Shown here: piece after piece, positions 2,891-21,901 of the stretch
How the letters are laid out: each line of letters begins with the position of its first letter
Numbering within the stretch: position 1 is the first letter of the stretch
IMG/VR virus record: IMGVR_UViG_3300010413_000175
Span: 1 to 24,327 of that record
Direction: 5' to 3' (one strand)
Source of the DNA: a virus
DNA: 24,327 nt
Notes under the pieces: generated by a model
Told to the model about the DNA's origin: nothing
The model's database searches: none
What the model saw: only the letters and a program-made list of their open reading frames with translations
Program-made: the position numbers and the translations under genes

Positions 2891-5281
2891 CTAAAATATT
2901 AGAGAAATTTCATTTAAAGAAGTAAAGTATGCAGAGACCTCATTCAAAGTACAAAAATAAGCAGAAATCGTAACTATATCACCTTGTGTAATTCTTGTTC
3001 TATCAGCTTCATAAAGGTCACTTAAAACAAAACCATCTAAGCAAGAGCTAGACGTAGAAACATATCCCCTAAAAGTACTTGAAAGCAAAACTCTTTCTAG
3101 CTTTACTGCACTAGCTGATAACCATGTCGTATATAAATCACTAAATACTGCCGTATCCGATAAACTCGACGCTGCTGACACGAGACCAATAAATTGATCG
3201 CTGAACTTAGAACCCTCAACAATTCCAGATGATAATGATTTAAGAGCTTCATAAGCATCGCTTAAAACGACACCTTCCGTTTGACTTAATGCAGCTACCA
3301 ACGAAGCGGCCCAACTGTCCCCCATAACTAAACCTTCTGCTAAAGCTTTTGTCATATCAGCCCTAACAGTATAATCATCAGATAACTTCAAACCATCAGT
3401 TATTCTCGCCTGCCCAACTAAGCGTGTCTCATATAAATCAGAAAACTTTGATGCATTTTCACATAAAACGGAAAGAGCTGTAAATACATTCGCAGTAAAT
3501 AAATCACTAAAACGAGCTTCTTCTCCTACGGATTGAATAGTCCTTGAAATAACAGAAAACGAGTCGCTAAGTTTTATATTTTCTTGATATTGTTGTAATG
3601 TTGTTATCGTAGCAGAGAGTGTATCACTAAATTTACCAGACTGTACATCGCTTGGACGAACAGTAAGTAATTTAGATAAAGTATCTTGTAATTCAATATT
3701 CTCAGATGCTTCAGCAATCAGGGCACTTACCGCAGTAACCAAATCTGAAAGTTTAATATTCTCAGCAACTTCCAAATTGGCTAAAATCGTCCCCACATAA
3801 TCGTCTCCAAATGAAACAGATTCGGAAATCGATTTCAACGTGTGAATCAGTCTTTCGTATAAATCCGAAAGCTTAATCGACTCAACAGCATTAGCTTGAA
3901 GTGTAACAAAAACATCATATAAATCCGAAAACTTTATGGATTCCGTGACGCTCCCTACTGTGGTTAAAATTCCTTCATAAACGTCAGACAATTTTATCGA
4001 TTCGCTAACATCTGCTCCAAGAGTACGAAAAACATCATAAACATCAGAAAGTTTTACTGACTCAGATTGTGATCCATAAGTAGTTAACAAGTATGTATAA
4101 ACATCTGATAATTTTGTAGATTCAATAAGACTGACCTGATGCGTTTGTCCTCCAACTGTTCCAACATAAGAATCAGATAACTTAACTGCTTCTATTAGAT
4201 TTCGATTAATAGTTAAAAGTGAATCAATTAAATCTGAAAGTTTTACTCCCTCTACTTGATATGCATCCTGCCCAGCCGCAATATATTGATCAGCACCAAT
4301 ATCCCAGTCGACGCCTAAAGCGTCTCTATCATTTCCAGAAATATCTATATTAATTCCACTAGGACTTGTACCAAAATCGTATCCAGCACCAATAGCATCA
4401 GCACCAGATTTTAAACGAAGATCTTCAGATCCAAAAACAGTAGAAACATATTGATTGTCTGGATCTTTATTAGTTAAAGAACCGGTTCCTGTCGCAGTTC
4501 CATCAGATGATAAATTATAACCAGCTTGTGCTACAGTTACATCAGTATCATTAAAACAACCTGAACCTCCACCAACAGTAGAAACATAAGTGCCAATATT
4601 ATTATAAATCCAGTGTGTTGATCTAAGATCTCTGAAGTAATAGCAATTTACATTACCAGCACCGCTAGCAACAATGCGATGAACAGTATTATTAGCTATA
4701 TATAGATCTCCATCAGCATAAGCTTCATGATCTATTCCTCTAACGTGACGGGTAGAGGTGCCATAATAACCAACATTATAAACAATATTATTTATAACAA
4801 GATTTCTTGTACTACCAAGTCCAATTCCGTAAGAATAATTAGTTCCAACCCAATCATGAAAAAGCATATTTCTCACAATATATAAGTTGTCACCAACGGC
4901 TGGAGTGTAAATGTTAAAAGTCGGATAGCTACTTCCACCATTATCATTTTCATCAACCTCCAACCATTCCCAAATAATATTTCTGGGAGCATTATTAACA
5001 AAATAAAACATTCTGGTTGTCGAACATAATATTCTAGCTCCAGTACCAGCACTTCCATCATGTCGATCTGTAGCCGCAACGCTAAGCTTAACCTCTCTTA
5101 GACCAATGGTTCCACCACCATTAAGTGTTACAGCTTCATCAAAATCATCATCATTATAACATTCACCAATAGCTATATCATCAGCACTAAAGATAGCCCC
5201 ATTATCTAATTGGGCCTCCCAGCCAGTAATTGTAGAATAATCACGACTATTTGTTCCAATAGTCTTAGTAACTATAGCCAT
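2891..5281 (-). CDS. Tail fibre/spike: right-handed beta-helix plus 20-residue repeats (796 aa)
   Basis: Residues 1-342 resemble a pectate-lyase-type right-handed beta-helix: repeated Asn-rich turns (NNAPRNIIW, STRNLVINNIVYNV, DLYIANNTVHRI, HWIYNNIG) and an end signature GNDRDALGVDWDIGADQY typical of such domains. Residues 343 to about 763 are some 21 tandem repeats of about 20 residues with consensus xESIKLSDxYxxxxTxxxxx. The tail end has a duplicated SAYFxxLNE(V/I)S motif. Beta-helices of this kind often bind or cleave polysaccharide; no catalytic residues could be assigned. The start ATG overlaps the previous stop (TAATG) and has only a weak Shine-Dalgarno, which suggests coupling. The BppU-like gene follows 16 bases later. 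The whole is best read as a receptor-binding fibre or spike. Confidence 0.75.
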   Translation of the reverse strand: MAIVTKTIGTNSRDYSTITGWEAQLDNGAIFSADDIAIGECYNDDDFDEAVTLNGGGTIGLREVKLSVAATDRHDGSAGTGARILCSTTRMFYFVNNAPRNIIWEWLEVDENDNGGSSYPTFNIYTPAVGDNLYIVRNMLFHDWVGTNYSYGIGLGSTRNLVINNIVYNVGYYGTSTRHVRGIDHEAYADGDLYIANNTVHRIVASGAGNVNCYYFRDLRSTHWIYNNIGTYVSTVGGGSGCFNDTDVTVAQAGYNLSSDGTATGTGSLTNKDPDNQYVSTVFGSEDLRLKSGADAIGAGYDFGTSPSGINIDISGNDRDALGVDWDIGADQYIAAGQDAYQVEGVKLSDLIDSLLTINRNLIEAVKLSDSYVGTVGGQTHQVSLIESTKLSDVYTYLLTTYGSQSESVKLSDVYDVFRTLGADVSESIKLSDVYEGILTTVGSVTESIKFSDLYDVFVTLQANAVESIKLSDLYERLIHTLKSISESVSFGDDYVGTILANLEVAENIKLSDLVTAVSALIAEASENIELQDTLSKLLTVRPSDVQSGKFSDTLSATITTLQQYQENIKLSDSFSVISRTIQSVGEEARFSDLFTANVFTALSVLCENASKFSDLYETRLVGQARITDGLKLSDDYTVRADMTKALAEGLVMGDSWAASLVAALSQTEGVVLSDAYEALKSLSSGIVEGSKFSDQFIGLVSAASSLSDTAVFSDLYTTWLSASAVKLERVLLSSTFRGYVSTSSSCLDGFVLSDLYEADRTRITQGDIVTISAYFCTLNEVSAYFTSLNEISLIF
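2975..4255 (-). repeat. About 21 tandem 60-bp units coding the ESIKLSD repeat
   Basis: Within the 796-aa fibre, residues from about 343 onward fall into units of 20 residues (a few have 21-23). Each has an acidic-x-x-x-(K)-LSD-x-Y core, for example SESVKLSDVYDVFRTLGADV. Units in the first third are the closest to consensus. Later ones drift (FSDLF, MGDSW, LSSTF). DNA identity between units is low, so this is an old protein-level repeat and not a fresh tandem duplication. Confidence 0.8.
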
Positions 5282-7286: not shown

Positions 7287-9425
7287 TCATGTATATATTG
7301 TAAATGGCTTAACGCGATCTATATACAATATTCCCACATTAAATTGATCCCTAGCAGTAGAAAGTACAGTTATTAATCTACCAGTAATAGATGAAACAGC
7401 ATGAATTTCACCTCTAAGATTAATAGGCAATCCAAGAGTACCGGTTATCGAACTAATACCATCAATTTCACCTATTAAATTTCTTTCAACCGAAAGCAAT
7501 GCCAATAGACTAGAAGTTCCTTCAGTTTCTCCTGCTATTCCGGAAGTTCCAGTTAATGGACCGCCAATGGAAGAAGCTCCAGCTATAACGCCAGCAAGAT
7601 TTCTTAATCTACTTAACGACGCACTAAGTGAAGATACTCCATTAATAACACCTTTCAGTGAAACTTCAGATGATATAGTTAAGATTCCACTAATAGATGA
7701 CGAACCAGCAATAATTCCGGCAAGCGGAATATCATTACTTATACTTCCGGAAATTGATGATTGTCCATTAATCTCACCAGCAAGCAATTCACTTACAGAT
7801 AATCTATCCGTAGATACAGTCGAAACCGCATTAATTACACCAGATAAATCTTTTGTTGCTTCGATAGAACCAGTAATACTTGAACTACCAGCTATAACAC
7901 CCTTTAATGTTACTTGTCCCTGAATTGTAAGAATTGCAGAAAGACTAGATGCACCGTCTATCTGACCAACAAGTTTCTTAGTTGTTTGAATTATGCCAGA
8001 AACACTTGACGTTCCATCAAACTCACCCACAAGATCTTTTGTCGTCAATAAAATTCCGGAAACACTAGAAGTTCCATCACATAGACCAGCTAAAGTTACA
8101 CTATTTGATATTGCACCAGTAATTGATGAAAGACCAGCAACCTCCCCTGCTAATTTAACAGATTTAGTCAGGACTCCAGCAACACTTGATGAACCAGCAA
8201 TTGTAGAGCTTAGTTTCTTTGTCGCATCCAAACTTCCAGTTATCGATGAAGATCCGGCAATAGTACCACTAAGTTTTTTACTAGCGTCTACTGCTCCACT
8301 AACAGAAGAAGATCCAGCAACAACACCCTTAAGTGTAACAGTTCCTTGAATGGTCAAATCGCCAGATATCGAAGAAGTACCAGCGATAGCACCAATTAAT
8401 TTTCTATCTACATCAAGGATTCCAGAAACAGCAGAAGTTCCATTAAAGGCACCGGCCAAATAAACATTACGATTTAAAATGCCGCTTATAGATGATTGAC
8501 CAGCAATCGTACCCGCAATCGTCGTTGCACTGGGAGTTGTTAGAATAGCCGCGATAGATGAAGCACCATCAAAAGCTCCAATTAATTTTTTGCTCGCGTC
8601 TATTGATCCACTTACAGCAGACGTTCCATCAAATTGTCCAGCAATAGTAAGACCTTTTGACAAAACACCAGTGACAGAAGAACTCCCATCAAATTGTCCA
8701 GCAATGTTTTTACTTACATCTAAGACACCTGCTACCGATGAACTTCCCGCAACAATACCGGCTATCGAAACAGAATTTACTATAGCTCCGGAAACCGAAG
8801 ATGAACCTGCAATAACACCAGCAATAGAAACAATGGTTTCAACACTTAAATCGCCAGCAACGGAAGAAGAACCAGCAACAACACCAGCAAGAGGAACAAC
8901 TGTTGCTTTACTAATAGTTAAAGTAGGAGTTTGTGTATAACTATTTAATTCAGTACCGCCAGATCTATATACATGAAAATCGTAGGTATCATTATTTGAT
9001 ACATCAAGATAAACGATCTCCATAACGAATTCTATTTCACAAACATCGTTCTTAGCAAAAGTAATAGCAGCAATAGCACCATTAGTATCCATGTTACCAA
9101 CAAGATCACCACCAATTTGAAGTGTAGTAGCATCTCCGTCAGTAATTGTCCATCCATCATTAGCAGATTCAGCATTACAAATACCAGTAGAGCTAGTACT
9201 CATTTGCGAATAACTGGTAGAATTCCGATTCATCCATATTTCGAACGCTTGACTACTACCAACAACACTATTGGTAATCAAAAATCGAATACGAAATGTG
9301 GTATCACCAGTTATAGTTTCTATATGATTAGTATTCCCAAGCTCTGACCATGTGGCAGCACTCTCACTACCATTATCATTTCGAAATCTAAAACCAGTCT
9401 GTGAATAGGAAGGTTCTTGACCCAT
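7287..9425 (-). CDS. Tail fibre with SSVSG 20-residue repeats (712 aa)
   Basis: Residues 1 to about 178 form a beta-rich head (TTFRIRFLITN, DVCEIEFVMEIVYLD, YDFHVYRSGGTELNSY). Residues 179 to about 690 are 25 tandem units of about 20 residues with consensus L-x-G-x-I-x-G-(S/T)-S-(S/A)-V-S-G-x-L plus a variable five to nine residues. A 22-residue C-terminal tail (FNVGILYIDRVKPFTIYT) closes the chain. Such regular Gly/Ser/Val units suit an extended beta-structured shaft. The start ATG overlaps the previous stop (TAATG) and has GAGGG six bases upstream. The BppU-like copy A follows. No enzyme motif was seen. A host-binding or shaft function is inferred from repeat architecture and position. Confidence 0.7.
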   Translation of the reverse strand: MGQEPSYSQTGFRFRNDNGSESAATWSELGNTNHIETITGDTTFRIRFLITNSVVGSSQAFEIWMNRNSTSYSQMSTSSTGICNAESANDGWTITDGDATTLQIGGDLVGNMDTNGAIAAITFAKNDVCEIEFVMEIVYLDVSNNDTYDFHVYRSGGTELNSYTQTPTLTISKATVVPLAGVVAGSSSVAGDLSVETIVSIAGVIAGSSSVSGAIVNSVSIAGIVAGSSSVAGVLDVSKNIAGQFDGSSSVTGVLSKGLTIAGQFDGTSAVSGSIDASKKLIGAFDGASSIAAILTTPSATTIAGTIAGQSSISGILNRNVYLAGAFNGTSAVSGILDVDRKLIGAIAGTSSISGDLTIQGTVTLKGVVAGSSSVSGAVDASKKLSGTIAGSSSITGSLDATKKLSSTIAGSSSVAGVLTKSVKLAGEVAGLSSITGAISNSVTLAGLCDGTSSVSGILLTTKDLVGEFDGTSSVSGIIQTTKKLVGQIDGASSLSAILTIQGQVTLKGVIAGSSSITGSIEATKDLSGVINAVSTVSTDRLSVSELLAGEINGQSSISGSISNDIPLAGIIAGSSSISGILTISSEVSLKGVINGVSSLSASLSRLRNLAGVIAGASSIGGPLTGTSGIAGETEGTSSLLALLSVERNLIGEIDGISSITGTLGLPINLRGEIHAVSSITGRLITVLSTARDQFNVGILYIDRVKPFTIYT
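7356..8891 (-). repeat. 25 tandem units coding the LAGxIAGSSSVSG repeat
   Basis: Units are 20 residues, with 21-22-residue variants at units 1, 6, 9, 16, 18, 20 and 25. Units 9, 16 and 20 contain an LTI(Q/S)...V(T/S)LKG junction, so units 9-10 and 16-17 look like copies of a larger block of seven units. The antisense strand stays open over long stretches because of the repeat, which produces meaningless reading frames there. Confidence 0.85.
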
Positions 9426-9778
9426 TATAGACCCTCAATTACTCTCTTACCGGTTTTTGCAGGTAAACCATATTGCTCACAAGCTATTTGAATTTTCTCG
9501 TAATCAGAGTGCGTAACCATTCTGCCCTGTATAACCCATTTAATTTGATCTAGAAAATGCATTATTTGATCAAGCATACCTTGAAGGTCAGCACCGTACC
9601 ATAAATCATTTTTATAATAATACCAATCAAACCCCTTCCATATTTGGCGACCATGTTTAGAATCAATATCCGCAATTACAACGACACCCAACCTCCTGTC
9701 TTTAGGAAGCTGGGTATCATCATATCCATCAAGAACAAAACCGTCATCGTAATATATTTTCCACAATATATTTTTCAT
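9425..9778 (-). CDS. Conserved phage protein, YDDG/W-rich type (117 aa)
   Basis: The protein opens with an LWKIYYDDGFVLDGYDD segment, continues RRLGVVVIADIDSKHGRQIWKGFDWYYYKNDLWYGADLQGML and ends with QGRMVTHSDYEKIQIACEQYG. This order (W.i.YDDG, a Val-rich strand, GR, D.Y.y, W.g.D..G, GR, Y..i...A) is one I know from many phages as a small conserved protein without assigned function. The start ATG lies 35 bases inside the end of the sulfotransferase-like gene, and no good Shine-Dalgarno is seen, so translation is probably coupled. It precedes the 712-aa fibre with a one-base overlap. Confidence 0.65.
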   Translation of the reverse strand: MKNILWKIYYDDGFVLDGYDDTQLPKDRRLGVVVIADIDSKHGRQIWKGFDWYYYKNDLWYGADLQGMLDQIMHFLDQIKWVIQGRMVTHSDYEKIQIACEQYGLPAKTGKRVIEGL

Positions 9779-10496
9779 ATTTACGATAGAACCCTTCTAT
9801 TTCATCGTCAGAGTAAAAATGTCTACAATATTTCGATTGCAACATTTTGTCAACTAACGATTTTGGCAGGGGGGGAATATCATATGGTTCAGACACTGCT
9901 TTATGCTCTGGTCTGATTTTTTTATCCCTCTGTCGAAATGGTATAAAAGCTTTCAAAGCTGTTTCAGCAGTTGAATCTATATCTTCAGTTCTCAAAATTA
10001 GAATAGGATAAGTACGATTTTCACGGATTATCATCCACTTAGCAATATTGTCAAATGGATAATTAAAGACATCAACACCAATATAATGTTTTATCTCATT
10101 ATCAAACCAATTGAGAATCTTGTCATGATCAAACTCTTTAGCAAAGTTTGTCCTACAATTAAAAAAAGATTTCCAAGCAGAGAGATTTCTTGCTAATGGT
10201 TCACGAACAATAGTGACAATAAAAAACTTCTCATCTCTGGAAGCTATGCGATCAGGAACGTCCCATGATTTTGATTTAGAACTAATGCCAAGTGTGTGGA
10301 GATGATGTGTATTCTCCTTCATTTGTTTTCTGAGAATATCATATAATGTATTCGAACCGACTCTTCCGGGTTGATAGATTAAAATGTCCGGATAGTTTGG
10401 ATCAATATTAAATTTTTCCGGATCCCTTTCAAGATAGCTTGGTGCTTTTTTCTTTTTTGGTTTATAAATAACACCAGCCAAATCCACATGTCCCAT
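9744..10496 (-). CDS. Sulfotransferase-like protein (250 aa)
   Basis: The protein shows the two nucleotide-binding signatures of PAPS-dependent sulfotransferases. A 5'-phosphosulfate loop lies at residues 41-51 (YQPGRVGSNTL, compare the usual GxxGSxxL/T), and a 3'-phosphate motif at 98-108 (REPLARNLSAW, compare RDPxxRxxSxF). A helical C-terminal half with a WFDNEIKHYIGVDVFNYPFD stretch, LILRTEDI and FYSDDEIEGFYRKY resembles the bacterial capsular-polysaccharide (NKWYS-type, PF10364) branch of the family. Its expected reaction is transfer of sulfate from PAPS to a sugar hydroxyl. AGGAG lies six bases before ATG 10496. It sits between a tail-type gene and the fibre genes, unusual company for an enzyme. 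Fold assignment is fairly firm; substrate is unknown. Confidence 0.7.
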   Translation of the reverse strand: MGHVDLAGVIYKPKKKKAPSYLERDPEKFNIDPNYPDILIYQPGRVGSNTLYDILRKQMKENTHHLHTLGISSKSKSWDVPDRIASRDEKFFIVTIVREPLARNLSAWKSFFNCRTNFAKEFDHDKILNWFDNEIKHYIGVDVFNYPFDNIAKWMIIRENRTYPILILRTEDIDSTAETALKAFIPFRQRDKKIRPEHKAVSEPYDIPPLPKSLVDKMLQSKYCRHFYSDDEIEGFYRKYEKYIVENILR

Positions 10497-13225: not shown

Positions 13226-14059
13226 ATTATCTGCTCCACTAATTAAAACTTTAGTTTCGTGTTCATTTGCTAACACGCCTTTAAACATATCTGTATCGTT
13301 AAAAATTATAGAATCCGGATTAGCAGGATTTCTCACCAAACCTTTTCCAGAAAAAGTAATATTACGTAGTACACGACCAAGTCGTCTACCACCATATTCA
13401 CCAGTGCCTCCAAATATCCTTAAATGTTTAGTTAAGAAAGCCGTGTTCTCTTGCCTAGCTACAACCTGTTGATTTCCGTCTGGGCTCACTAGCCCATAAT
13501 CAAAGTTTGTGAACAAAGCTTCCATAGAGACAAACCACTCATTACGAGCAATACCCTCAATTAACTTGGCTACTTCTTCTTGCCACTCTGGATTCCTCGA
13601 CGTAACATGTTTATATATTACAGAACGTGTAAGAATATGAAATTTATCTGGAAGTTTTGAACCGTCTTGAATAACCTTATAGGACTCATCAACTCCAGCA
13701 GAGTTAGTAATATGCCCAATTATTTTAGATGGCTCATGTTCCAAATTAAAAGGTTTATCAACAGGAGAACTTCTAGCATCCCACGTTTCTTGACCATCGA
13801 ATATATCATCATTCTTATTCCAACCAGTAGTAACAAGAATAGTATAAACAGGATGTAAATCAATATCTTGACGTGAGAGACCAAGAGTTTCTTCTGCAAA
13901 CTCGATGTCTTTTTTACGAGATTCACCCTCAAAGACGGCCGGGTCAATTAGAGGCTCAATTCGAGCCAAAGTACCAGCAACAAATGAATTAGAAGAACAT
14001 AAAAGATCTTCCAATCCATCGTCTATCTCAGCCGCATATACTTTAAAAGTCTCACTCAT
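12539..14059 (-). CDS. Prohead protease fused to scaffold (506 aa)
   Basis: Residues 1 to about 255 are a prohead-type serine protease. His108 in FNLEHEPSKIIGHI and Ser178 in NEWFVSMEALF are the likely catalytic pair of the T4 gp21/U9/U35-like fold, and FSGKGLVRNPANPDSII near 236-252 is the usual end of the domain. From about 279 the chain is a long coiled coil (AALEQKLSEALHKLEE and onward), then an extremely acidic stretch (Glu/Asp/Ser-rich, about 430-490) and a short C-terminal helix HESIASYLGSYLG that may contact capsid protein. This is a protease-scaffold fusion as in lambda C/Nu3. AAAGGG lies eight bases before ATG 14059. An internal start inside it is listed separately. Confidence 0.85.
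   Translation of the reverse strand: MSETFKVYAAEIDDGLEDLLCSSNSFVAGTLARIEPLIDPAVFEGESRKKDIEFAEETLGLSRQDIDLHPVYTILVTTGWNKNDDIFDGQETWDARSSPVDKPFNLEHEPSKIIGHITNSAGVDESYKVIQDGSKLPDKFHILTRSVIYKHVTSRNPEWQEEVAKLIEGIARNEWFVSMEALFTNFDYGLVSPDGNQQVVARQENTAFLTKHLRIFGGTGEYGGRRLGRVLRNITFSGKGLVRNPANPDSIIFNDTDMFKGVLANEHETKVLISGADNMSDEILRELKDKNAALEQKLSEALHKLEEMGEAAVQAKLDAKDKSITELKDNVATLTKSIEELTASVKELEKSRDEAVAAKIEIQEKLTKAEEAIEASKAETLKTSRISMLVDKGVDKAEAEELVAEFSDLDDGKFNKLVELKSELAAKKKCSDEDEEDDKKSKASEEEEETEETDDSTEAETDETLSDAEEEKDAALASEDTDDDASDLHESIASYLGSYLGSREQN
13226..13237 (-). promoter_or_regulatory. Internal ribosome binding site of the scaffold
   Basis: GGAG at 13237-13234 followed by eight bases (CAGATAAT) and ATG. 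Spacing and strength equal those of the annotated gene starts nearby, and the site lies inside the protease-scaffold frame. Confidence 0.55.
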
Positions 14060-14080: not shown

Positions 14081-14090
14081 TTATACACCA
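14081..14090 (-). promoter_or_regulatory. TGGTGTATAA motif ahead of the protease-scaffold gene
   Basis: On the minus strand TGGTGTATAA is followed by ATTATTG, about 20 bases before ATG 14059. The same ten bases occur ahead of the portal gene at 16582-16591. It contains a TATAA core resembling late-promoter or -10 elements. It is listed as a candidate late promoter element only. Confidence 0.3.
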
Positions 14091-16530: not shown

Positions 16531-16581
16531 TTTTTCACTCTTTTAAAAATATAATACAATTACAATACAACCACTATTTAA

Positions 16582-16591
16582 TTATACACCA
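16582..16591 (-). promoter_or_regulatory. TGGTGTATAA motif ahead of the portal gene
   Basis: It lies in the 70-base gap between TerL and portal, about 52 bases before the portal GTG, and is followed on the minus strand by TTAAATAG. The gap is strongly AT-rich. It shares ten identical bases with 14081-14090. A candidate late promoter element; no proof of activity. Confidence 0.3.
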
Positions 16592-18655: not shown

Positions 18656-19115
18656 TATTAACTCTTTCTACGATACGCTTAAATATAGATGTAGCTACTT
18701 GTTGCCCATATTCCCCGACAAAAATAAATTTAGACTTAAATCTTAGTTGAAATTCAATAAATCTTTTAAGAAGTTGTGGACCTTTTATTTTTAGATATTT
18801 CCAACGTCTAGCTGGAATGCCAGATCCAACGGGATATTGAATAAGGTCTTCCATCGTAAATTCTAAAAGGACGAAGGGGAACTCAATAAGTTCCAATCTC
18901 TCAAGCTCTGCTTCAAATCTCTTATCAAAAAGGTTATGGGCGAACTCACTAATAAGCCCCTTCCTCTCAATAACAAAAATTGACTCCAAACCCCTCAAGG
19001 TATAGTCACCAGACTTCAAACTTCCCAAAACTGTCCCCGAACAATTCTGACTTCTCTTGAAGTTCCAACCCTTTCCGATCTTTTCCCTCGTATCTCTTAC
19101 AACAGTGTAGGGCAT
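18630..19115 (-). CDS. ERCC4 (XPF/Mus81)-type structure-specific nuclease (161 aa)
   Basis: The protein is essentially a lone ERCC4 nuclease domain. Seen are VRDTREK at residues 6-12, SGDYTL at 35-40, and IERKG at 49-53 (the ERK catalytic core), followed by HNLFDKRFEAELERL, where RF..EL is also conserved. Together the acidic residues and Lys of D-x-RE, GDY and ERK bind metal. Known relatives cut branched DNA at 3' flaps and forks. No helicase and no C-terminal (HhH)2 domain is present. AAAGG lies six bases before ATG 19115. It overlaps gmd by 19 bases upstream and TerL by 26 bases downstream, so it is tightly tied to the packaging motor. A role in trimming branched replicative DNA for packaging is inference. 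Confidence 0.8.
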   Translation of the reverse strand: MPYTVVRDTREKIGKGWNFKRSQNCSGTVLGSLKSGDYTLRGLESIFVIERKGLISEFAHNLFDKRFEAELERLELIEFPFVLLEFTMEDLIQYPVGSGIPARRWKYLKIKGPQLLKRFIEFQLRFKSKFIFVGEYGQQVATSIFKRIVERVNSGKKKETE

Positions 19116-20152
19116 GGTTGGCCTTTCATTAATTCAATATCAGAATCAACCATCCTGTCAACTAATTGCTCAAAAGTAATGGTTGGTTTCCACTTTAATT
19201 GTTTTCTTGCTTTTGTCGCATCTCCACACAAATAAGATACGTCGGAAGGACGCACGAACTTCGAATCAACAACAACAAAATTACCCCAATCCTCAATGCC
19301 AATCCGCTTGAAAGCAAGACTGCAAAATTCTATGACACTATGTGACTCGCCCGTTGCGATAACGAAATCCTTTGGTCTTCCCTGCTGCAACATTAACCAC
19401 ATCGCCATTACATAATCCTCCGCATGCCCCCAATCTCTTGAAGCACTCATATTCCCAAGGTGTAGTTTTTCCTCATATTTAAGTGGATAAGTTTTAGTAG
19501 TCCATCTTACATTTTTCAACCAGCCCACATATCTAGTAATCTTTCGGGTGACAAACGAATCCCCCCGTCGTTCACTCTCGTGGTTAAACAATATTCCTGA
19601 GCAGGAGAAAATATTATAAGCATCCCTATACATCTTGGTCAGGTAATGACCTGCAAGCTTGGAAATAGCGTAGGGCGAGGTAGGGGAGAATGGGGTATCT
19701 TCATTTTGAAAGTGAACCTTCGAACATGCACACCTGCTACAATTTGTTGAATAATTGTTCCCAAACATTTCAGACGTTGAGGCTTGATAGAACCTTGCCG
19801 AAGGAGCCCATCTTTTTATCGCCTCCAAAATATTGAGAACACCAATAGCATCCGTTTTCCAGGTATAGTGGGGTTGTTCAAAACTCGTATGGACATGTGA
19901 CTGAGCAGCGAGGTTATAAACTTCGTTTACTTCTGGGTTCGCCCTAATAATTGAATTGATAGAGGATTCGTCGGTCACATCCCCCTCAATAAGATGAAAA
20001 TTCTCGTGCTTCATTGCAATTCGAAGACGTTGTGTCGTGTCGACCGAAGCCCTACGACACATGCCGTAAACTGAGTATCCTTTCCCCAATAATAGTTCCG
20101 CCAGATAGCTGCCGTCCTGCCCCGTGGCTCCAAATATAATGGCTGTTTTCAT
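19097..20152 (-). CDS. gmd: GDP-mannose 4,6-dehydratase (351 aa)
   Basis: It converts GDP-D-mannose to GDP-4-keto-6-deoxy-D-mannose, the branch point to GDP-fucose, GDP-rhamnose and GDP-perosamine. Seen are an NADP Rossmann loop FGATGQDG at 7-14, catalytic Ser/Thr in ASTSEMFG at 124-131, the Tyr-x-x-x-Lys pair in SPYAISK at 159-165, the signature NHESERRGDSFVTRKI at 190-205 and ASRDWGHAEDYV. These place it firmly in the short-chain dehydrogenase GMD family. ATG 20152 is chosen over an upstream in-frame start because the Rossmann core begins there and the preceding gene stops four bases ahead. An extra segment with Cys138, Cys141 and Cys143 follows the catalytic loop. It is encoded in the packaging operon. 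Confidence 0.9.
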   Translation of the reverse strand: MKTAIIFGATGQDGSYLAELLLGKGYSVYGMCRRASVDTTQRLRIAMKHENFHLIEGDVTDESSINSIIRANPEVNEVYNLAAQSHVHTSFEQPHYTWKTDAIGVLNILEAIKRWAPSARFYQASTSEMFGNNYSTNCSRCACSKVHFQNEDTPFSPTSPYAISKLAGHYLTKMYRDAYNIFSCSGILFNHESERRGDSFVTRKITRYVGWLKNVRWTTKTYPLKYEEKLHLGNMSASRDWGHAEDYVMAMWLMLQQGRPKDFVIATGESHSVIEFCSLAFKRIGIEDWGNFVVVDSKFVRPSDVSYLCGDATKARKQLKWKPTITFEQLVDRMVDSDIELMKGQPCPTLL

Positions 20153-20156
20153 CGTG

Positions 20157-20381
20157 TTACGCCTTTGGTTTGTGAATGCAGTCAAAACGACTCGCAACTT
20201 CTTGCTCAGATGATTCCTGAGCAGGAAGCTGTGTATCACGTGTGATTAAATTTTTGTCATCTTTTTTCTTTTTAAATATGGGCTGGGGAACTCCCGGTTG
20301 ACTAGTATCATAGGTAATCAATCCCTCGTCCCGAGCATAAACACCATCCTTCGTCATAACAATCGGTTTATATTCACTCAT
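20157..20381 (-). CDS. Small charged hypothetical protein (74 aa)
   Basis: ATG at 20381 (MSEYKPIVMTKDGVYARDEG) is chosen. It overlaps the preceding stop by eight bases, with GAAGGGG nine or more bases upstream. The longer form would need a start within the preceding gene. The protein is hydrophilic and has a Lys run (FKKKKDDK), with Asp and Gln throughout and a C-terminal HKPKA. There is no membrane segment and no recognised family. It lies between the HTH/coiled-coil protein and gmd with overlapping or four-base spacing, so it is co-translated with both. No function is proposed. Confidence 0.55.
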   Translation of the reverse strand: MSEYKPIVMTKDGVYARDEGLITYDTSQPGVPQPIFKKKKDDKNLITRDTQLPAQESSEQEVASRFDCIHKPKA

Positions 20382-21177
20382 TTCTTGAGACCCCTTCTGG
20401 TGATAGGAATGGGCTATTATAAGACCCATCCTCGAATTTCATAGAATGTTGCCAGTCCGCCTCTATCTTATCAGCCCCCATTTTCATCAACTCCATCCAT
20501 CTTCCCTCTTTCTTTCTTTTATCCAGGGAATCCAAATCTTTAATCAACTCAAAAATATTCTTTTTGGACTCCTCGATATGTTTAAATCTTAGATCCCTCG
20601 TTGCCTTCAAGTCACGAAGCTTTTGGTCCTTGCGTTGTTGGTATTCGAGGTGTTCTTTGGATAGAGCAGGGAGTGCTGTTCGTAGGGAACTTATTTGCGT
20701 ATTGATCAATGCCATCAACGCCTTGTCCTGTTGATCATCTGGGAGAACCCTCTCCAAATCCATTTTATGTTCCAACTCCTGAATCATGATGAGGGCTTTC
20801 CGCTTCTCCGTATTAGCCCGAAGCCCCCCGATCTCCAAAATAATGAGATCCTTAATCATCATTTCATCGGTGGGCAAGATTTCATTGGTTGAGAATTGAT
20901 CGACCAGCTTCACCCACTGTTGTTCAAAGAACCCCACTTCATTGGGCATTAGGGTACGTTTGACCTCTTCCCAAAAGTGGCTTTTATGCAGGCGAGACAC
21001 TTCATCTTCGCGATCCATCTTTTCCTGAATAACGGGGATTTGAGCGATGCGTTCCTTGACGAATATCTCGGTGCGGTTGAGAATTCTGGCGATCTCGGGC
21101 ACGTCGATGCTTTCATAATTTTCCCTAATAAATTTTTCTTCTTCGAGGCTCGCAGGCCCCCTCTTCTTACCCCCCAT
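20374..21177 (-). CDS. HTH and coiled-coil protein, possible small terminase (267 aa)
   Basis: Residues 10-45 (SLEEEKFIRENYESIDVPEI, ARILNRTEIFVKERI) fit a helix-turn-helix or SANT-like fold. The remainder is almost wholly helical and charged, with a long heptad-like region (KEHLEYQQRKDQKLRDLKAT to KKNIFELIKDLDSLDKRKKE, about 170-225). A DNA-binding N-terminus joined to an oligomerising helical body is the layout of small terminase subunits, and it lies upstream of TerL with three genes between. A transcription cofactor for the sigma-like factor encoded just before it is the alternative. ATG 21177 overlaps the sigma gene by 11 bases, with GAGGGA upstream. The TerS label is a guess from architecture. 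Confidence 0.5.
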   Translation of the reverse strand: MGGKKRGPASLEEEKFIRENYESIDVPEIARILNRTEIFVKERIAQIPVIQEKMDREDEVSRLHKSHFWEEVKRTLMPNEVGFFEQQWVKLVDQFSTNEILPTDEMMIKDLIILEIGGLRANTEKRKALIMIQELEHKMDLERVLPDDQQDKALMALINTQISSLRTALPALSKEHLEYQQRKDQKLRDLKATRDLRFKHIEESKKNIFELIKDLDSLDKRKKEGRWMELMKMGADKIEADWQHSMKFEDGSYNSPFLSPEGVSRNE

Positions 21178-21730
21178 ACTCTTCCCTCACAATTCTTCGA
21201 ATCTCTTCTTCGATTCTCAATCTTCGATGTTTTGGTAGTCGAACCCCCTCAAGATATCTTCGGTAATCCGCTTTGAGAGCGAGGGGAAATTTGTTTTCGA
21301 CCAATTGGACGATTTCTTGATCTATGAGAGATTCACAACCGTCGAAGAAATCGGCATGGGTCTCCTCCGTCCTAATGTCCTCATTATCAAAGCACTCAAC
21401 CAGGGTTTTTTTGGCGACGTTTCGATCATTCCAGGCGTTCCATTTAGGGCAGAGGTCGACCGCTTCGCAGTCCTCAAACTTTTCGCAGAGAGAGCAAGGG
21501 GGCTCCCGTCTTTCCATTTTGTCACGACGCAAATTAATAAAACGGTTTCTCACATGAATTCGAATAAATTGTTCGAGAGAACAACCCCGAGATTCGTCAA
21601 AACGGGGAATGACTTCGAGGGCTTCTATCCTCCCCTCCTGCATCATATCATCAAAATCATAGTAGCCGAACGCGTAAGTCTTTGCCAAATTACGAATTGC
21701 CCTATCAATCGTTGGAAGGTAATTTTCCAT
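21167..21730 (-). CDS. Phage-encoded sigma70-family factor, region 2 with Cys cluster (187 aa)
   Basis: Residues 5-75 match sigma region 2: IDRAIRNLAKTYAFG, then YYDFDDMMQEGRIEALEVI at 24-41 (the DxxQEG core that binds the polymerase clamp helices), then RFDESRGCSLEQFIRIHVR-N-RF (-10 recognition helix). Next is an unusual cysteine cluster, C79-x2-C82-x5-C88-x5-C94 (PPCSLCEKFEDCEAVDLCPK), able to bind zinc. A helical C-terminal part with LPKHRRLRIEEEIRRI may act like region 4. ATG 21730 is chosen for the core alignment and the GAGGA five bases upstream; a longer frame extends to 21901 but has no sigma content. As first gene of the packaging and virion operon it is a natural candidate for directing late transcription. 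Confidence 0.7.
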   Translation of the reverse strand: MENYLPTIDRAIRNLAKTYAFGYYDFDDMMQEGRIEALEVIPRFDESRGCSLEQFIRIHVRNRFINLRRDKMERREPPCSLCEKFEDCEAVDLCPKWNAWNDRNVAKKTLVECFDNEDIRTEETHADFFDGCESLIDQEIVQLVENKFPLALKADYRRYLEGVRLPKHRRLRIEEEIRRIVREEYGG

Positions 21731-21801
21731 TTTCGTCCTCTGGATCTGGAATTCCAAGTTCCCCCTCAATTTCTTTTTCAAGATTTTCCGACGCTTTGGT
21801 G

Positions 21802-21815
21802 TATAGTAAGGTGGG
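21802..21815 (+). repeat. Direct repeat TATARTAAGGTGGG, copy 1
   Basis: TATAGTAAGGTGGG, one base different from copy 2 at 21871-21884. It lies in the leader of the leftward operon. Confidence 0.55.
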
Positions 21816-21870
21816 AATAAAGTTGTCGTTTGACATATTTTTCTCCGTGGGTAAATGAAGTGAGCCCACT

Positions 21871-21884
21871 TATAATAAGGTGGG
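21871..21884 (+). repeat. Direct repeat TATARTAAGGTGGG, copy 2
   Basis: TATAATAAGGTGGG, 69 bases from copy 1. It overlaps the -10 box of the minus-strand promoter, so a protein bound here would block or modulate that promoter. Confidence 0.55.
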
Positions 21885-21901
21885 TAAAGGCCACCCGTCA
21901 A
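21872..21901 (-). promoter_or_regulatory. sigma70-like promoter for the leftward operon
   Basis: On the minus strand TTGACG (21901-21896) and TATTAT (21877-21872) are separated by 18 bases (TTATTA would give 17). Transcription would start near 21865, leaving a leader of about 135 bases before the sigma ATG. Both boxes are close to consensus; host polymerase could start the operon that then makes its own sigma. Confidence 0.5.

Follow-up and report, generated by a model that had tools for sequence, protein, structure and literature searches.

A predicted late sigma factor with a probable zinc loop and its candidate promoter in a family of uncultured phages

The sigma factor gene and its relatives

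The window, that is, the whole 24,327-nucleotide stretch of viral DNA analyzed here, carries on its minus strand an operon that opens with a sigma factor gene, followed by a gene for an HTH protein and, farther along, by those for the large terminase (TerL), the portal, and the capsid. The sigma gene (positions 21167 to 21730, minus strand; ATG at 21730, stop codon at 21169 to 21167) encodes 187 amino acids and was delimited by its open reading frame and its relatives. This gene order, together with the linkage to the terminase, bears out the initial annotation, which had put the sigma gene at the head of the late operon. A GDP-mannose 4,6-dehydratase gene (19097 to 20239, minus strand; PF16363, E value of 1e-111) lies in the packaging operon, where it separates the HTH protein gene from that of an ERCC4-type nuclease. 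The tail region contains a match to the NKWYS/sulfotransferase family (9744 to 10496, minus strand), possibly a carbohydrate-modifying gene. The window also encodes two long proteins made of short repeats (7287 to 9425 and 2891 to 5281, both minus strand; AGxxxGSSSVSG-like and ESxKLSDLY-like) that had no Pfam family.

Residues 10 to 71 of the protein (21518 to 21703, minus strand) correspond to sigma-70 region 2. They matched the Pfam family Sigma70_r2 (PF04542) with an E value of 5e-10 and 39.4 bits versus a cutoff of 24, and the same family was matched by 50 of 58 relatives. An AlphaFold model built from 58 relatives (mean pLDDT of 86) consists of region 2 (residues 1 to 74), a cysteine loop (75 to 94), one helix (95 to 111), an unsure linker, and three helices (131 to 185). 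The modeled region 2 superposed well on solved ones, e.g., 8b3z_A (Z of 10.6 and root mean square deviation of 1.9 Å over 74 residues), and this region is intact and strongly conserved across the family. Both the Pfam match and the fold thus uphold the assignment as a region 2 sigma factor. By its region 2, the protein is probably a sigma-70 superfamily factor, predicted to bind core polymerase and to direct initiation at promoters.

Single-protein searches of viral contigs, genomes, and cultured phages returned no relatives of the sigma protein, and two single-protein scans added little. Relatives were reached through the large terminase of the sigma operon, which gave 480 matches in viral contigs, of which 80 were retrieved; in 26 of these 80 loci, the terminase gene was preceded, on its own strand, by a gene for a sigma relative. 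The eight closest sigma relatives were then aligned, and a search with this alignment gave 555 matches, of which another 80 were retrieved, using search patterns drawn from region 2 without the cysteine cluster. Pooled, the two retrieved sets contain at least 82 distinct family sequences, separated in the sigma tree by long branches, that of the window included. Three family members had no match among 50,697 sequenced phage records, and distant relatives appeared in only two metagenome-assembled genome contigs, too weak for naming a host. Several relatives also have further sigma factors that are of other types; one of them is the closest relative, which has the 28 late-motif sites described below and whose extra factor is ECF-like with a normal region 4 (L172, 6002 to 6538, minus strand). 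Judging from the retrieved sequences, this small sigma factor belongs to a large family of phages that have yet to be cultured. A literature search found no description of a phage sigma factor with a zinc loop, an absence that is no proof of novelty.

The four-cysteine loop and the C-terminal part

Directly after the part that recognizes the -10 element lies the loop C79-x2-C82-x5-C88-x5-C94 (21449 to 21496, minus strand), with its cysteines exactly at the residues first reported. We predict it to be a zinc site, based on column conservation and on the interchange of Cys and His; in the model, it belongs to the less confident part (pLDDT of about 59 to 80). Among 58 diverse relatives, column 82 and column 94 each had Cys in 46 (46/58), column 88 had either Cys (36) or His (10), and outside the four ligand columns no column had more than 9 Cys. 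Ligand 3 was Cys or His in all of the 46 loop-bearing members of this alignment. The cluster noticed at this place is therefore conserved and of a metal type. When all 82 distinct sequences were considered, 46 had four cysteines, 19 had His as ligand 3, and 17 were without the loop. Conservation in relatives, on which the initial annotation had staked the cluster, thus holds for 65 of the 82 sequences; it does not extend to two branches that lost or never had it.

The 23 distinct loops with exactly the spacing of the window always had Cys as ligands 1, 2, and 4, with His (13 loops) or Cys (10 loops) as ligand 3. Most residues within these loops were variable, and the near-constant ones flank the last ligand: an acidic/Asn-Gly pair before it, of which the loop in the window lacks the Gly, and a Lys-aromatic pair after it. 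In a tree built with the loop columns excluded, well-supported branches forced at least three changes of the Cys/His state and at least two changes between presence and absence of the loop. At least two branches lack it, and the phages of these branches share the same promoter core. An exchange restricted to Cys and His at ligand 3 is characteristic of a structural metal site, with zinc, as the ligand set suggests, the probable metal, and it argues against a disulfide switch that needs C88. The redox sensitivity proposed earlier therefore loses its footing, since the third Cys has been repeatedly exchanged for His, while metal responsiveness of the factor is at most a possibility.

By an alignment to the Escherichia coli protein, the loop would start where region 3.0 of sigma-70 starts. 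In the model, the loop likewise occupies the expected start of region 3 and is followed by one helix, consistent with the earlier suggestion that it replaces part of that region. This helix (residues 95 to 111; 21398 to 21448, minus strand) has conserved W100, R103, N104, and K107, according to the model and the alignment columns, and may correspond to region 3.0. As modeled, the loop most likely clips region 2 to this helix.

The C-terminal three helices (residues 131 to 185; 21176 to 21340, minus strand) look like a reduced region 4. When the C terminus was modeled alone, the five solved structures most similar to it were sigma region 4 chains, but the similarity was weak (best Z of 5.6, 62 residues, 3.6 Å), and it gave neither a significant Foldseek match nor a match in a PDB sequence search; Pfam detected no region 4. 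Thus, the resemblance of the modeled C terminus to region 4 is weak.

Late promoter motif and expression of the sigma gene

Two sites in the window carry the candidate late promoter: TGGTGTATAAT at the TerL/portal junction (16581 to 16591, minus strand), found by motif scan and in relatives, and TGGTGTATAA at 14081 to 14090 (minus strand), 22 nucleotides before the gene at 14059 to 12539 and at the same place in relatives. At up to one mismatch, there were seven copies of TGGTGTATAA in the window versus 1.8 expected. Exact copies on the minus strand numbered two, just before the portal gene and the next (protease/scaffold-like) gene, and a third lies on the plus strand within a gene. Across the retrieved loci, TGGTGTAT was the top overrepresented 8-mer upstream of genes (101 regions versus 2.9 expected), and it extends to TGGTGTATAAT. 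Of 64 distinct loci, 37, including the window, had the exact motif at the TerL-portal junction, and most of the others had a variant there. In the closest relative, a contig of 173 kb contained 28 exact TGGTGTATAAT sites versus 0.1 expected, most of them 14 to 47 nucleotides before an open reading frame; their -35 positions scored at background, with TTGACA at the -35 distance in only 1 of the 28. The junction placement, the 28 sites, and the missing -35 box confirm the initial annotation of TGGTGTATAA as a repeated promoter signal.

The TATAAT within the motif is a perfect host-type -10 element. The closest relative also has 19 classical TTGAC-TATAAT promoters, all on one strand and many of them in a single block close to where the contig starts. 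In the same contig (L070, L164 to L172), there are seven CGGTGTATAAT sites, with C rather than T as the first letter, of which three have a TTGAC[A/G] -35, as if C marked host-type and T phage-type use.

The letters of the motif follow the sigma clade, with TTGTGTA versus TTGGTGTA in two sister clades, the loop-less clade among them; this variation is support rather than proof, because shared descent could also produce the pattern. Loop-less factors (L010, L015, L018, L025, L034, and L050) are accompanied by the TTGGTGTATAAT that is also seen in the loop-bearing window and by the TGGTGTATAAT of L003, L005, and L070, which indicates that the loop does not set promoter specificity. Given that some relatives have additional sigma factors, the attribution of the motif to this one rests on the wider pattern. 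In three genomes (G001, G002, and G004), the region 2 model found only this sigma factor, and the motif or a variant was present at the junction (L003, L005, and L079), although whole-contig enrichment at one mismatch was weak in G002 and G004. In some cysteine-bearing freshwater subfamilies, the motif was poor or absent, and they may use another. One freshwater relative with a loop of the Cys-x2-Cys-His type (L239 to L246) had ACGAATAA(T) as the top upstream 8-mer (13 regions versus 0.3 expected), which may be the promoter of that subfamily.

Upstream of the sigma gene itself, the window has a host-type promoter, TTGACG-N18-TATTAT (21872 to 21901, minus strand), whose spacer contains the inverted repeat GGTGG/CCACC. 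A small open reading frame of 43 amino acids with a GGAG ribosome-binding site (21705 to 21836, minus strand) overlaps the sigma start, suggesting from the sequence a possible translational coupling. Repeated GTGGG/CCCAC words and the inverted repeat at 21855 to 21901 (minus strand) have the look of operator sites to which a regulator would bind.

The only similar copy of the late motif near the sigma start of the window is TGGTGTATAG at 21797, on the plus strand and thus in the wrong direction. Of the 71 loci that offered 600 bp or more of upstream sequence, only one had the late motif within 1.2 kb upstream of the sigma gene. Within 400 bp upstream, the core GGTGTATA had 3 copies over 75 loci versus 1.1 expected, while strict host-type promoters were found in 11 of the 75 versus 0.9 expected, six of the 11 being near relatives of each other. 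We rejected self-activation of the sigma gene, since the motif was absent in 70 of the 71 loci and in the window, where a host-type promoter is present instead. The positive loop started by the factor itself, as first envisaged, thus found no support in the window or in the several other loci with a host-type promoter. Given these counts, it is more plausible that the host polymerase expresses the gene early. A search of 12 large relatives detected no polymerase beta' gene, which makes the host polymerase the probable partner.

Proposed mechanism and known systems

Taken as a whole, these data make it likely, in our judgment, that the protein is an early-made, zinc-clipped late sigma factor that reads TGGTGTATAAT through the host RNA polymerase. 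The factor would be produced early from its host-type promoter and would then, as an alternative sigma factor, direct the host polymerase to the late promoters. Region 2 would bind the core polymerase and open the -10 hexamer (TATAAT), the parts just past region 2 would read the TGGTG directly upstream of it, and a -35 box would not be needed. The four-cysteine loop would be a structural zinc clip at the region 3.0 junction that holds the conserved helix in position relative to region 2; some lineages have a short linker in its place.

It is quite unlikely that TGGTGTATAAT is instead read by the host sigma factor as an extended -10 element, with the phage protein acting as an anti-sigma factor, a coactivator, or a factor for another promoter class. 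The perfect host-type TATAAT, the weak region 4 resemblance, and the other sigma factors in some relatives fit such a role, but the classical promoters of the closest relative all lie on one strand whereas its TGGTG sites have no -35, the motif varies with the sigma clade, and region 2 has kept its conservation. A direct reading of DNA by the loop, through contacts with the TGGTG letters or with single-stranded DNA at the bubble's upstream edge, appears equally improbable. The loop would lie where region 3.0 meets the extended -10 letters, and its ligand order resembles that of nucleic acid-binding CCHC knuckles; however, loop-less factors are paired with the same TTGGTGTATAAT, and the residues within the loop are mostly variable. 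CCHC zinc knuckles of the retroviral nucleocapsid type likewise fit their ligands, ordered C-x2-C-xn-[H/C]-xn-C, into fewer than 20 residues. The inner gaps of the sigma loop each exceed the classical x4-x4 by one residue, and Cys can serve as its ligand 3.

That the loop is a redox- or metal-responsive element of the factor we regard as unlikely. Four thiolates are open to oxidation, and a known metal-responsive sigma factor has cysteines in the same linker (PMC8999054), but His serves as ligand 3 in 19 of the 65 loop-bearing members, which a C88 disulfide would not tolerate, a Cys-rich C-terminal domain is lacking, and the same promoter core accompanies members without the loop. There is only a slim chance for the boldest version, an undescribed widespread sigma family in which the zinc loop stands in for the junction to region 3 and gates promoter opening, the late switch thus being under the control of the metal or redox state of the host cell. 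If this were true, loop-less lineages would have lost such control yet kept the same promoter code.

Returning to the zinc-clipped late factor, hundreds of relatives in metagenomic viral contigs and a probable promoter code define the sigma family even though the three members tested had no sequenced-phage matches. With such a code, late operons could be called from sequence alone in many uncultured phages. Natural relatives with and without the loop that share a promoter core offer a ready comparison for the role of the region 2-region 3 junction in opening.

Three known systems help to place the factor. The phage sigma factor phiEco32 gp36 works on the host core, has no recognizable region 4, and relies, at its middle and late promoters, on one -10-type element, tAATGTAtA (PMC8948821). 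Late promoters of the window family would likewise consist of one -10-type element without a -35, as predicted from the 28 TGGTGTATAAT sites, but the motif is another one and the match to gp36 has no cysteine loop; hhalign aligned 53 columns, in region 2 only (4% probability, E value of 0.009). T4 gp55 is a small late sigma factor with the short -10-only promoter TATAAATA (PMC1524935); it has no cysteine loop and depends on the sliding clamp and gp33, and hhalign aligned 33 columns (2% probability). CorE and CorE2 (ECF238) have linker cysteines after region 2, and CorE needs a Cys-rich C-terminal domain (PMC8999054). Their motif is CXC as opposed to the C-x2-C-x5-[C/H]-x5-C of the window, and that domain is absent from the window family, given the low Cys counts in every nonloop column. 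The best reading, by analogy and from sequence, is that the factor would work like phiEco32 gp36 or T4 gp55 while being no demonstrable member of either family. Since the region 2 similarity to both is marginal and the CorE domain is missing, we class it with the phage late sigma factors, as a predicted member set apart by a metal-type loop where regions 2 and 3 meet.
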